This document shows, in pieces, positions 784-24,712 of a stretch of 26,231 nt of DNA (positions within the stretch are counted from its first letter, which is position 1; each line of letters starts with the position of its first letter). The stretch is from positions 1 through 26,231 of IMG/VR virus record IMGVR_UViG_3300027810_000054; one strand, 5' to 3'. A program made the position numbers and the translations under genes. Below the pieces are notes generated by a model that was not told the origin of the DNA, ran no database searches, and saw nothing but the letters and a program-made list of their open reading frames with translations. This DNA comes from a virus.

Positions 784-791
784 TATTTATA
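784..791 (-). promoter_or_regulatory. Late promoter for the leftward gp4 unit
   Basis: The minus strand reads TATAAATA here, the full T4 late octamer, 30 nt upstream of the gp4 start codon. It lacks the GTAT extension found at the four rightward promoters (the minus strand continues CTGT). Its expected start point falls almost on top of that of the rightward promoter at 767-778. Confidence 0.7.
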
Positions 792-9053: not shown

Positions 9054-9091
9054 AGCGTTATTGGTAACCCAGCGACAACCAAATTAATATT

Positions 9092-9134
9092 AACCCCTTG
9101 ACAAAATTGTTATAAATAGTATAATAGAACGGTA
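9092..9134. repeat. 43-bp direct repeat, left copy
   Basis: This copy matches 23299-23341 at 42 of 43 positions; the only mismatch is C at 9097 against T at 23304. It contains the composite promoter and sits at the left edge of the fibre module. Identity stops abruptly on both sides. Confidence 0.95.
9098..9125 (+). promoter_or_regulatory. Composite sigma70-like and late promoter, left copy
   Basis: TTGACA (9098-9103) and TATAAT (9120-9125) are separated by 16 nt, a consensus-like sigma70 pair. Inside the spacer lies the T4-type late octamer TATAAATA (9111-9118). The element starts 74 nt before the first fibre gene. The two readings would start transcription about 9 nt apart. The TATAAT may simply be part of the extended late motif, but the consensus TTGACA at workable spacing is unlikely to be chance when it is kept in both copies. 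Confidence 0.8.
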
Positions 9135-9171
9135 AGGTAATAAAACCAAATGCGAATTTTAGGAAAATGCA

Positions 9172-11256
9172 ATGACTAGACAAATCATAGGTACGGGCGC
9201 AGCCGCAAATAATAATGGCGGTGATACTCTACGAGCAGCTGGTAATAAGATCAATGATAATTTTAGTGAACTATATACCCTTATTCAGTTAAATAACGGT
9301 GTTCTTGTAGATAGTGGCGTTGCTATTACACTTGACGACATTACCAATTTATTTGCTGACGGCACGTTTACTGACTCTGATCTTGCAATTAGAGTAACGG
9401 ATAACGACAGTGATATCGTCAGCATTTTAGCACAACTTAACACTATTCAAATAGACTCTGATCTTTCGGATAGAGTAACGGATAACGAAAGCGATATCGT
9501 CAGTATTTTATCGCAACTTAACGCTATCGATAGCGATGCTGTCAACGCGGAAACCTATACTTTAACACGCGACATATTTACTGGTGATGGTTCTACAGCA
9601 ACCTTTACTTTAGCTGATAGCGCGTATGATCCAGCAATGCTCAATGTTGTTATTGATGGATTAATGCAAGATGTAAGTTCATACAGCCTTTCTAATGGTA
9701 CGTCATTAATCTTTTCTGAAACACCGCCTCTTAGTTCTAGTATTGAGGTTAGAGGATTTTTACAAGAACTCTCAGCAGGCGAAACAGCACATACTTTATC
9801 ACATGACACATTTACTGGTGATGGTTCTGCAACTACATTTACTTTAGCTCAGAGTGTTACTGCGGCATCATTGCTCAATGTTGTTGTTGACGGACATATA
9901 CAAGATGTTAATTCATACACCGTTAATGGTACGTCATTAATCTTTTCTGAAGCTCCTCCTCTTAGTTCTAGTATTGATGTTAGAGGATTTATGACAAAGG
10001 CATTTTCAGTCGTTGGAAGTGGATCATCTGAAACCCCATATACTTTAACACGTGACACATTTACTGGTACTGGTGCTGCAACCACCTTTATTTTAGCTGA
10101 GGGTGTGACTGATCCATCAATGCTTATTGTTATCATTGACGGATTTATGCAAGATGTAAGTTCATACACCGTTGCTGACACGTCATTAATCTTTTCTGAA
10201 GCTCCCCCGTTTAATTCTAGTATTGAGGTTAGAGGATTTATAACAAAGGAAGTTTCAGTAAATACTAATCTTATGTCTAGTAGTTTCGTGGCAGACGGAA
10301 TTGTCTCATCATTTACTCTTAGCACTGCTGCGGTAAAGCAGAACACTTTTGTGTATATTGATGGAGTTTACCAATTTAAAGATACGTATTCTGTAGCAGA
10401 CACTTTACTTACACTTTCTGGCATTCCTCCGGTGATGTCTGGGATTGAAGTACTTTCTATAGGAGCAGCATACTCTACGAGTCAGGTTGTCGTCCCTACT
10501 GAATTAACCAGTAGTGAGTTAACAGGGGACGGTTCCACTACAGCGTTTACTCTTAGCGCTCCTGCTGTAAAAAATAATACTTTTGTTTACATTAACGGAG
10601 TATATCAGTTTAAAAGTACGTACTCAGTAGTAGGCGATACTCTTACTTTTTCTGAGGCTCCTCCTCTTAATGTTGATATTGAGGTTATGGTTGCTGGATT
10701 TACCTTAAGCCAAATTAGTGTTATCGATGATGCCTCAGTTACTACATCTAAGATAGCAGATTCTAATGTAACCGCAGCTAAGATAGCAAGTAACGCCGTA
10801 ACCACTGGTAAGATAGCAAGTAATGCCGTAACCACTGGTAAGATAGCAGGCACTGCCGTAACCACAGCTAAGATTGCAGATGCTAATGTAACAACTGTCA
10901 AGATTGCAGATGATGCAATAACCACAGATAAGGTAGCAGATGGTGCCATTACTTCTGCCAAGTTAGGTGCAGGGGTAGGTGGAGCATACAATGATTTTGT
11001 TATTAAAACAACTGCATACACAGCAGTCACTAGAGACCAGATAATTGTCAATTCTAGTAGTGCTGTAACTATCACTCTTCCTATAACCCCATCATCGGGC
11101 AACGTAGTGTTCATTAAGAACGCTGGTACTGGTGAAGTAACGGTTGGTAGGAATGGGTCAAACATTAATTCAACGGCAGACGATGGTACTCTAGCGGCAG
11201 ACGCTGGTGCATCTCTGGTCTATGTTGACGGAACAATAGGCTGGAAGGAACTTTAA
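9172..11256 (+). CDS. Repeat-rich tail fibre protein
   Basis: The 694-residue protein has a modular fibre layout. Residues 1-45 (TRQIIGTGAAANNNGGDTLR, then NKINDNFSELY) form an N-terminal domain recurrent in marine myovirus fibres, probably for attachment or trimerisation. Two coil units follow (RVTDNDSDIVSIL and RVTDNESDIVSIL). Five beta-rich units of about 75-80 residues start near 129, 208, 290, 372 and 450, with patterns FTGDGSTATFTL, IDGLMQDV and SLIFSEAPPLSSSIEVRGF. Next come tandem 10-residue units of the TTxKIADxAV type (about 523-600) and a C-terminal strand-rich domain ending GTIGWKEL. It is the first gene behind the composite promoter. AGGA 7 nt upstream fits ATG 9172. No enzymatic motif was seen, so it is probably a stalk or a connector for adhesins. 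Confidence 0.8.
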   Translation: MTRQIIGTGAAANNNGGDTLRAAGNKINDNFSELYTLIQLNNGVLVDSGVAITLDDITNLFADGTFTDSDLAIRVTDNDSDIVSILAQLNTIQIDSDLSDRVTDNESDIVSILSQLNAIDSDAVNAETYTLTRDIFTGDGSTATFTLADSAYDPAMLNVVIDGLMQDVSSYSLSNGTSLIFSETPPLSSSIEVRGFLQELSAGETAHTLSHDTFTGDGSATTFTLAQSVTAASLLNVVVDGHIQDVNSYTVNGTSLIFSEAPPLSSSIDVRGFMTKAFSVVGSGSSETPYTLTRDTFTGTGAATTFILAEGVTDPSMLIVIIDGFMQDVSSYTVADTSLIFSEAPPFNSSIEVRGFITKEVSVNTNLMSSSFVADGIVSSFTLSTAAVKQNTFVYIDGVYQFKDTYSVADTLLTLSGIPPVMSGIEVLSIGAAYSTSQVVVPTELTSSELTGDGSTTAFTLSAPAVKNNTFVYINGVYQFKSTYSVVGDTLTFSEAPPLNVDIEVMVAGFTLSQISVIDDASVTTSKIADSNVTAAKIASNAVTTGKIASNAVTTGKIAGTAVTTAKIADANVTTVKIADDAITTDKVADGAITSAKLGAGVGGAYNDFVIKTTAYTAVTRDQIIVNSSSAVTITLPITPSSGNVVFIKNAGTGEVTVGRNGSNINSTADDGTLAADAGASLVYVDGTIGWKEL
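10738..10970 (+). repeat. Tandem 30-bp coding repeats in the fibre gene
   Basis: About seven to eight in-frame 30-nt units encode degenerate TT(A/G/S)KIA(D/S)(N/D)AV decapeptides. Neighbouring units near 10799-10860 are nearly identical in DNA, with ACCACTGGTAAGATAGCA recurring exactly. Such units are common in phage fibre stalks, and their number can change by slippage or unequal recombination. Confidence 0.85.
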
Positions 11257-12019: not shown

Positions 12020-12316
12020 ATGTATTATAATATAAAAGATGCGGATGGCAACATTACAAATACCATCAAATCTAATTTAGAGTTTGTTGAAGCTAACTTT
12101 GAACACTTTGAACTCTACGTCGCACCTACACTTGTAGAGCCTACAGCAGAAGAGAGTGAGCGTGAGTGGCGTGATGCAGAACTATCTCGTACTGACATAT
12201 CCGCTACAGTTTCTGACTACCCTAACGCAGACGCTTACATTTTGTATAGAGAGGCCCTTAGAGAATGGCCTGCAACTTCAGATTTCCCAACAACCAGGCC
12301 AACTATAGGAGAATAA
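12020..12316 (+). CDS. Tail fibre assembly chaperone-like protein, copy 1
   Basis: The 98-residue protein has an N-terminal part (MYYNIKDADGNITNTIKSN) typical of small fibre-assembly proteins. Its C-terminal half has the Phage_tail_APC-like pattern: EREWRDAELSRTDISATVSD, then ILYREALREWP and FPTTRP (about residues 53-95). Such proteins help fibre or adhesin proteins fold and trimerise and are normally encoded next to the fibre they serve. Here it lies between the glycine-rich adhesin and the long fibre at 12318, both with the MAIILGG tag. AGGAG 6 nt before ATG 12020 is a strong ribosome binding site. The C-terminal half is paralogous to the 66-residue protein at 14379. Chaperone function is inferred from family and place. 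Confidence 0.7.
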   Translation: MYYNIKDADGNITNTIKSNLEFVEANFEHFELYVAPTLVEPTAEESEREWRDAELSRTDISATVSDYPNADAYILYREALREWPATSDFPTTRPTIGE

Positions 12317-14174: not shown

Positions 14175-14382
14175 TTATATTGAAGTAATAAACCAAAACT
14201 GGGTAGACGATACATTTAATGTTGAAAGCCACCCTACTATTGTTGGGACAAAGCAACTTAGCGGTAAAATTACTGCGGATAATCACGTTCTTTTTAGTGG
14301 CGGTGAATTAGGTAAAATATTTATTGATGGTGTTATGTACAGCGACCCATCAGAAATACCAGAAGAAGGAGAAGGCGAATGA
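14167..14382 (+). CDS. Small protein of unknown function in the fibre module
   Basis: The 71-residue protein starts MYNYIEVINQNWVDDTFN and ends in an acidic tail (EIPEEGEGE). A central Gly-rich segment (SGGELGKIFIDGVMY) looks like a beta-turn. I recognise no family. The strong GGGAGG at 14152-14157, 9 nt before the ATG, and the ATGA overlap with the next gene support real translation. It may correspond to the N-terminal part of a two-part fibre-assembly chaperone whose second half is the next gene; copy 1 (12020) has both parts in one chain. Sequence similarity between its N-terminus and that of copy 1 is too low to claim. Confidence 0.6.
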   Translation: MYNYIEVINQNWVDDTFNVESHPTIVGTKQLSGKITADNHVLFSGGELGKIFIDGVMYSDPSEIPEEGEGE

Positions 14383-14579
14383 GTTGGACTATAGCAGATA
14401 ATCAAGACGCTAATTCAGAAGCACTTGCAAAAGCGTGGAGAGACTCAGAACTAGAAGCTACTGACTTTATAGCACCTTTGTTTGACCATCCACAACGCGA
14501 TGCACACATAATTTACAGGGAAGCGCTCAGGCAATGGCCGAGTACAGAAGACTTCCCAATTACACGACCGGAACTATAG
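14379..14579 (+). CDS. Tail fibre assembly chaperone-like protein, copy 2 (short)
   Basis: The 66-residue protein contains AWRDSELEATDFIAPLFDHP, IIYREALRQWP and FPITRPEL (about residues 19-66), the same pattern as the C-terminal half of the protein at 12020 and similar to Phage_tail_APC. It lies directly before the first pectin-lyase-fold spike and after the long fibre, so it could serve either. The start overlaps the preceding stop as ATGA, with AAGG upstream. It may work with the 71-residue protein as a split version of the 98-residue copy. Confidence 0.7.
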   Translation: MSWTIADNQDANSEALAKAWRDSELEATDFIAPLFDHPQRDAHIIYREALRQWPSTEDFPITRPEL

Positions 14580-23282: not shown

Positions 23283-23298
23283 TGAGGGATTTACTAAC

Positions 23299-23341
23299 AA
23301 CCCTTTGACAAAATTGTTATAAATAGTATAATAGAACGGTA
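23299..23341. repeat. 43-bp direct repeat, right copy
   Basis: Partner of 9092-9134, 14,207 bp downstream, with one mismatch in 43. It begins 17 nt after the stop of the last fibre gene and drives the gp8 block. Confidence 0.95.
23305..23332 (+). promoter_or_regulatory. Composite sigma70-like and late promoter, right copy
   Basis: TTGACA (23305-23310), a 16-nt spacer containing TATAAATA (23318-23325), then TATAAT (23327-23332), identical to the left copy. It lies 76 nt before the gp8 start, almost the same distance as the left copy from its gene (74 nt), although the leader sequences differ beyond the repeat. Confidence 0.8.
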
Positions 23342-23380
23342 GGTGGACTACTGCACCGAAATAGAGGATAGGAATATACG

Positions 23381-24712
23381 ATGTTAGCCATAGTAAGACA
23401 AACCATGCGGTCTCGTTTAGCAAAAGAATTGTTGCAGGATTCACAAGACGTTTCGACAAGTCAATACTTTATTGGTATTGGTAAGTCCGATAGTTTTGGG
23501 AACAACGACGTACCAGTTGCTGCTGTAGACTCGCCATTTGAAGAAAGAGAATTCCGTCATAATCTTCAATCTATAAAGAAGATTGAATCCTCGTCTATCG
23601 TTATGCCTAGAGTTAACTGGTCTAGTGGTTCACTTTATTCATCTTGGTCAGACCAAGTAACCACATATCCATTCTATGTAATGAATGCACAGAAAGAAGT
23701 CTACATATGTTTGACACAGGGTGGGGCGCAAGTTACCCCTAACTTATCTACTGTAGAACCCAATTATGGTAATGTGGGCCCAGATGCCTATCTAACACCT
23801 TTCACAACAAGTGATGGGTACGAGTGGAAGTACATGTTCTCCTTGTCACCAGTAAGATTGACCAACTTCTTATCCTCTAATCATATTCCCGTATTGGTTT
23901 CTGAATCTACAGAGGTTGATGCAGGCCCATTCGAAGATTTATTAATTCAGGTACAAGACGCAGCTGTACCAAGAGAATTAGTGTCTATCCAAATAACTGA
24001 ATCGGGCAGTGGTTATGTTGACGGAGACGTTGTTGTTACTATCGAAGGTACTGGAACAGGTGCTGCCGCTACTGCTACTATAGTAGGCGGTAAAGTGGTT
24101 AGAGTTACTATGACCAATCGTGGACAAGATTACATCTATGCTAATGTTAGTATTATCAACGGTGCAGGAACTGGATGTGTATTGAGAGCAGTAATGTCTG
24201 ACGCAAATGGTCTGGGTAAAGACCAAGTAAATGATTTCAAAACAAGTTCAGTCATGTTCACTATCAAACCAGATGGTGTTGAAGGAAATACCTTCATTGT
24301 AGAAAACACATTCCGTCAGATGGGATTGTTAAAGGATATCACTGATGCTGCCGGAGTTGATTTTACGGGGACTAGTCTCAAAGTATTATCTTATGTGCAA
24401 TTGACTGCAACTTCTGCATTTACTTCGGGCAACCAAATTACAGGTGTTACTTCTGGTGCAGTAGGATATATCGACGAGTCAGTAAACAATGATGTTTATT
24501 ACCACCAAAATGAAAGTACTGGATTCATTCCTTTTCAAGCGAATGAACAAGTCACTGAGATTGGTGGTTCTGCTAGTGGGGTTATCTCTACACTACATCC
24601 TGTCAATGGCGTAAATCGGTTCTCTGGCGAAGTCCTATATATTGAGAACAGAAACAAAATACAACGTGATGCACAACAACAAGAAGACATTAAGTTAGTC
24701 ATAACCGTTTAG
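23381..24712 (+). CDS. 8: Baseplate wedge subunit gp8
   Basis: The 443-residue protein has the gp8 outline: an N-terminal helix, then YFIGIGKSDSFGNNDVPVAA (about 28-47), EFRHNLQSIKKIESSSIVMP (about 57-76), NWSSGSLYSSW, then EVYICLTQGG, and finally the DGYEWKYMFSLSP block (about 146-158). gp8 dimers sit in the outer wedge in T4. At 443 against 334 residues it is longer than the T4 protein. The excess includes a Gly-rich segment GSGYVDGDVVVTIEGTGTGA (about 208-227) and a second TSGNQITGVTSGAVGYIDES part, of kinds recurrent in marine phage structural proteins. It begins the block behind the right composite promoter, with GGATAGGA as ribosome binding site. It is separated from the gp25-gp6 block only by the fibre module. 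Confidence 0.85.
   Translation: MLAIVRQTMRSRLAKELLQDSQDVSTSQYFIGIGKSDSFGNNDVPVAAVDSPFEEREFRHNLQSIKKIESSSIVMPRVNWSSGSLYSSWSDQVTTYPFYVMNAQKEVYICLTQGGAQVTPNLSTVEPNYGNVGPDAYLTPFTTSDGYEWKYMFSLSPVRLTNFLSSNHIPVLVSESTEVDAGPFEDLLIQVQDAAVPRELVSIQITESGSGYVDGDVVVTIEGTGTGAAATATIVGGKVVRVTMTNRGQDYIYANVSIINGAGTGCVLRAVMSDANGLGKDQVNDFKTSSVMFTIKPDGVEGNTFIVENTFRQMGLLKDITDAAGVDFTGTSLKVLSYVQLTATSAFTSGNQITGVTSGAVGYIDESVNNDVYYHQNESTGFIPFQANEQVTEIGGSASGVISTLHPVNGVNRFSGEVLYIENRNKIQRDAQQQEDIKLVITV

Follow-up and report, generated by a model that had tools for sequence, protein, structure and literature searches.

A Candidate Promoter with a Late Box Nested Between Sigma70 Elements in the Tail Region of a T4-Like Phage

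Introduction

Can tail genes of a T4-like phage be placed under a promoter that is read twice, early by the host RNA polymerase and afterwards by the late transcription complex of the phage? The question is raised by two sites in a stretch of viral DNA at which the octamer TATAAATA lies inside the spacer of what looks like a sigma70 promoter. In T4-type late promoters, this octamer is served by gp55, gp33, and gp45. If the double reading is correct, a lytic T4-like phage would transcribe some of its tail genes from the start of infection, and phages that lack MotA could gain continuous expression from two promoters packed into 28 bp.

The stretch that was analysed (hereafter, the window) is a whole viral record of 26,231 bases and carries the tail and baseplate region of a T4-like myovirus. 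It contains gp48-like, gp53-like, and gp5-like genes, gp25 (5877), gp6 (6318), a wedge protein gene (8094), a fibre ORF with a T4 gp9/10-like N-terminus (9172–11256, + strand), more fibre and adhesin genes up to 23282, a gp8-like baseplate wedge gene (23381–24712, + strand; phrog_438, E 2e-71), and, listed after gp8, a large DUF4815 protein. The fibre ORF has internal repeats at 9547–10259 (three units, each roughly 230 nt long) and 10768–10947 (five of 30 nt), which are typical of modular fibre growth.

At the DNA level, the closest named phage is Phage C48C1, of the family Kyanoviridae. Two larger relatives are G001 (145 kb), whose gp6 and gp8 are both 73% identical to the window proteins, and G002 (151 kb), whose gp8 is 51% identical to that of the window; both encode gp55 and gp33, which belong to the late machinery. 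G001 also encodes a di-haem cytochrome c peroxidase (L222:8375-9817) whose signal resembles that of a lipoprotein; the gene may be auxiliary and may hint at the host. Its 77% identity to a protein from a Haliea MAG weakly suggests a marine gammaproteobacterial host.

Structure of the Composite Sites

The 28-mer TTGACAAAATTGTTATAAATAGTATAAT is present at 9098–9125 and, in identical form, at 23305–23332, both on the + strand. As the initial annotation had claimed, each copy reads TTGACA, 16 nt, TATAAT with TATAAATA in the spacer, an arrangement found at no other site in the window; we refer to it as type A. In copy 1, the -35 hexamer lies at 9098–9103 (matrix score 10.8), the late octamer at 9111–9118, and the -10 hexamer at 9120–9125 (all +); the corresponding + strand positions in copy 2 are 23305–23310, 23318–23325, and 23327–23332. 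The late box occupies -13 to -6 relative to the RNA start (PMC1524935), and with TATAAT set at -12 to -7, late starts are predicted at 9124 and 23331 and sigma70 starts at 9132 and 23339. The distance between the two starts is therefore 8 nt, a small correction to the 9 nt or so that had been expected.

Upstream of the -35 hexamer of copy 1 lies an AT-rich stretch, AAATTAATATTAACCCC (9081–9097, +), which may act as an UP-like element; in relatives it reads AAATTAATTTNAAAA, with a mean pairwise identity of 0.95 among five haplotypes of the chaperone locus described below. RNA folding of the leaders revealed nothing remarkable. A nine-codon frame, ATGCGAATTTTAGGAAAATGCAATGACTAG, at 9150–9179 extends across the start codon of the fibre ORF (9172) and could be a leader or a product of chance.

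The other octamers in the window, at 767 (+), 784–791 (-), and 5847 (+), have no TTGACA in register, in agreement with the earlier statement that the remaining late promoters lack a proper -35. Two of them form a pair at 767–791, in the interval from the gp4-like to the gp48-like gene. They are separated by 9 bp, lie on opposite strands, and point across one another; this arrangement is retained in relatives (G001:97790/97814 and G002:136340/136364).

Like T4-type late promoters, the composite sites place TATAAATA upstream of structural genes. These had been given as adhesins and gp8, which is accurate for the site at 23305, followed by gp8 on the + strand; the first gene downstream of the site at 9098 is more precisely the fibre ORF of the gp9/10 N-terminal type. 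No + strand terminator was predicted between the gp25 promoter (5847) and the fibre genes, so the latter may also receive read-through from that promoter.

Strength of the Sigma70 Elements

Chance hardly accounts for the sigma70 match. Shuffling the window gives an expectation of 0.04 occurrences of TTGACA-N14..19-TATAAT, and two such sites appeared in no shuffle; a nested match at 12 of 12 positions is expected fewer than 0.001 times among the five window octamers. The relatives have a recognizable class of early promoters, TTGACA-17-TATAAT, with 22 perfect sites in G001 and 20 in G002 (vs. 0.3 and 0.1 expected), almost wholly outside structural genes; the class was measured in these two genomes, as the window represents only 26 kb of its own. 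The spacer in this class is nearly always 17 nt, with a minority of 16 or 18, and the window sites, at 16 nt, depart from the usual length.

Scored with a matrix built from 71 early-class promoters, the window sites reach 22.5, compared with a class median of 21.2 and values of -5 to +6 for ordinary late promoters, although the hexamer part of this score is partly circular, the training sites having been chosen by their hexamers. Both sites would rank with the top 17 of the 145-kb relative. In addition, they have the G before and the A after TATAAT that are typical of the class, an agreement that is independent of hexamer selection. In strength, then, the sigma70 elements of the window match the early promoters of the group itself. 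We consider it rather probable that the sites are composite promoters, in which host polymerase would read the sigma70 half early and a gp55/gp33 complex would read the late box.

Conservation in Relatives and the Case for an Ordinary Late Promoter

In relatives, the promoter drives a 159-aa tail-assembly chaperone first and then gp8. The 16-mer TTATAAATAGTATAAT is invariant in these relatives and the block GTTATAAATAGTATAAT is invariant across eight aligned sequences; the octamer and TATAAT, as aligned with copy 1, are unchanged in every aligned relative. Among the five chaperone-locus haplotypes, pairwise identity reaches 1.00 in both the octamer and TATAAT, against 0.73 in the -35 hexamer, 0.74 in the spacer, and roughly 0.6 in the immediate flanks. 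The -35 hexamer is TTGACA in the window and L201, TTGATA in L202–L205, TTGTTA in L206/L208 (G001), and CCGATA in L207, and with this drift the matrix score falls from 22.5 to 17 and 16, then to 10, and finally to 5.5. More distant relatives retain just TATAAATA upstream of gp8. A search of phage records with the window promoter DNA gave chance-level matches only and found no type A carrier in that collection.

Because the octamer core is kept in relatives while the -35 hexamer drifts, the late function of the type A promoter appears to be ancestral and general, and the full-strength sigma70 promoter seems to be confined to the close lineage of the window. Similarly, since the -35 hexamer is not maintained at this locus, early reading would not be a feature conserved for these tail genes.

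This pattern gives weight to a simpler explanation, namely that the sites are ordinary late promoters with fortuitous sigma70-like flanks: GTATAA would be an A+T-rich melting context, and the final T and TTGACA would have arisen by drift. The -35 hexamer is not kept in relatives and its identity hardly differs from that of the spacer. Moreover, TATAAATAGTA is frequent at other late promoters in the group; in T4, late promoters carry an AT-rich segment downstream and are not conserved at -35 (PMC2988020); and the perfect match at two places amounts to one repeat. However, the complete TATAAT is invariant here and variable at other late promoters. In the same genomes, the octamer of the gp25 late promoter is followed by seven variable bases (GTATAAA, GTATGAA, GTACAAA, GCATGAA), which indicates that the invariant hexamer is specific to the promoter under study. 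Four of the five chaperone-locus haplotypes also hold at least four of the six -35 bases at exactly the same spacing, and the full nested match has the very low chance expectation given above. We therefore regard purely fortuitous flanks as unlikely, while still the most serious competitor of the composite reading.

Duplication at the Ends of the Fibre Cassette

Both sites belong to a 51-bp direct repeat. Copy 1 (9084–9134, +) stands at the head of the fibre cassette, and copy 2 (23291–23341, +), 92% identical to it, follows 14.2 kb further on; the two lie at both exact ends of the 14-kb cassette. The two sites are thus copies of one repeat and represent a single evolutionary event rather than independent ones. 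Copy 1 is located in the 118 bp that separate 9053 from 9172; in relatives this interval measures 15–36 nt and the promoter is absent. The neighbourhood of copy 1 is present in four contigs (the window, L121, L122, and L195), in exact form in L121 and with one spacer change each in L122 and L195. Misassembly of copy 1 was considered and is ruled out by these three other contigs. The exact junction of copy 2 occurs in the window record only.

Relatives carry the downstream copy only. In all close relatives the chaperone gene is found upstream of gp8, and its intact ORF (L201 5505-5984) matches Phage_tail_APC (PF16778). In the window the gene is deleted (23336–23381); comparison with the L201 ORF identifies its last codons as the remnant ctactgcaccgaaatag at 23348–23364 (+). 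Owing to the loss of this ORF, the promoter now stands directly upstream of gp8. Copy 1, flanks included, is closer to the L201 chaperone promoter than copy 2 is. The simplest reading of these comparisons is that a copy of the promoter came to lie ahead of an enlarged fibre cassette. Two small tail-fibre-assembly ORFs, at 12020–12316 and 14379–14579, may be a replacement for the lost chaperone.

The position of the repeats at the exact ends of the cassette, the single downstream copy in relatives, and the deletion of the adjoining chaperone gene would also suit a recombination boundary of a receptor-binding cassette, with the promoter elements merely travelling along. However, the repeat is just 51 bp long, and the core is also kept in relatives that have a single copy, so promoter function explains its conservation; we give the recombination boundary very little credence.

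A Second Nested Promoter Behind an Exonuclease Gene

A second nested promoter, TTGACA|TATAAATA|GTATCTGTTATACT (type B), is present 3' of an exonuclease gene in 12 of 14 relatives, these representatives having been fetched only through homology to the neighbouring exonuclease protein. It lies directly behind the RecB-like exonuclease gene (L401–L423, e.g., L411:2209-2240) and is common to G001 and G002 (G001:51049, G002:34993). Its -35 hexamer, TTGACA in 11 of the 12 sites and TAGACA in the other, directly abuts TATAAATA; downstream of the octamer comes GTATCTGT or a variant, with TATACT in 10/12 and usually an extended -10 TG. In C48C1, TTGACA and the octamer are kept and the -10 is degraded.

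The type B -35 hexamer overlaps the last exonuclease codons (Leu/Phe-Asp-Ile-stop), and codon choice at this end is unusual. The Asp codon is GAC in all 12 cases (GAC:GAT is 48:46 elsewhere), and Ile is encoded by ATA, a codon used for 2 of 127 elsewhere, because the late box forces it. The gene that follows differs between phages (383, 355, 428, 437, or 458 aa, among others), and the five tested had no Pfam match. Type B may accordingly mark a cargo slot, in which unlike genes are placed behind a fixed early and late promoter.

Type B is the better conserved of the two nested promoters, and its retention in 12 of 14 relatives supports the idea that nested early and late promoters are a selected design in this group. 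It is conceivable, at slightly less than an even chance in our judgement, that such promoters form a selected, reusable part of the marine T4-like group, which would keep a plugged-in gene on from early to late infection at both type A and type B sites. Type B offers a clean, testable case and flags a slot for interchangeable genes that is worth screening.

The octamer–TATAAT core with an in-register TTGACA (spacers of 16–18) also occurs in unrelated marine phage contigs, in which the octamers are putative; the genes that follow are oxygenase-, halogenase-, or transferase-like, names that were read from translations. In five contigs (L302, L353, L356, L357, and L275), TTGACATCGAAAATATAAATAGTATAAT or a near-identical sequence has the geometry of the window sites, is followed by AGGGGGGTCGGGGGGTCAG, and precedes islands of accessory-looking genes. 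Scanning viral contigs for TTGACA...TATAAATA with an open gap proved too unspecific.

Proposed Mechanism

Under the composite reading, the TATAAATA box would be a late promoter for the gp55/gp33 complex, and the TTGACA and TATAAT around it a sigma70 promoter for unmodified host RNA polymerase. Initiation by sigma70 near 9132 and 23339 would come first, in parallel with the many TTGACA-17-TATAAT early promoters of the phage, and the gp55 complex would later start near 9124 and 23331. The late start falls within TATAAT, so the two complexes should be mutually exclusive. The ancestral unit would be the promoter of the tail-assembly chaperone and gp8; in the lineage of the window it would have been copied ahead of the enlarged fibre cassette, with loss of the chaperone gene.

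The same mutual exclusion (box position from PMC1524935) could instead mean that host polymerase bound early holds the late promoter until gp55 complexes displace it, thereby sharpening the switch to tail genes, but there is no sign of a pause or block and the remaining early promoters of the group with consensus elements are presumably active, which makes such a delay highly improbable. The sequence itself, the early class and the conserved core in relatives, the duplication, and the chaperone deletion are established directly; early initiation at the window sites, with its timing and use, is what we infer from sequence comparison, and early use is likely. The dual reading put forward in the initial annotation is thereby strengthened on several points (sigma70 elements as strong as the early class, gp55 and gp33 in relatives, a conserved type B) and weakened on others: the -35 hexamer is not maintained in relatives, and the spacer is 16 nt against the 17 of the class.

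Comparison with Known Systems

The composite sites share with T4-type late promoters the octamer, a short 5' leader, downstream structural genes, and the presence of gp55 and gp33 in relatives; they differ in that sigma70 -35 and -10 elements flank the box, whereas no conservation at -35 is seen in T4 (PMC2988020). With the early promoters of their own group, they have in common two perfect hexamers and the same flanking bases (G before, A after); unlike these, they have a 16-nt spacer that includes a late box, and are situated among structural genes.

Pfam models PF09114 and PF09010 (MotA/AsiA) had no match in G001 or G002, a weak test in which the control was also without a match. Nested sites with the strict octamer were absent from the Syn9 record and from 100 kb of Phage C48C1.

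The nearest parallel is that of RB49, S-PM2, and Syn9, in which, according to a review (PMC2984593), overlapping early and late promoters have been proposed for middle genes. There, as at the window sites, early (sigma70) and late elements occupy a common promoter region. The window sites differ in two respects: the late box sits within the sigma70 spacer, and the genes downstream are tail genes (the fibre ORF and gp8) rather than middle genes, type B in turn being found behind an exonuclease gene. Overlapping early and late promoters have thus already been proposed in related phages, and what sets the present sites apart is their nested geometry and their tail-gene targets.
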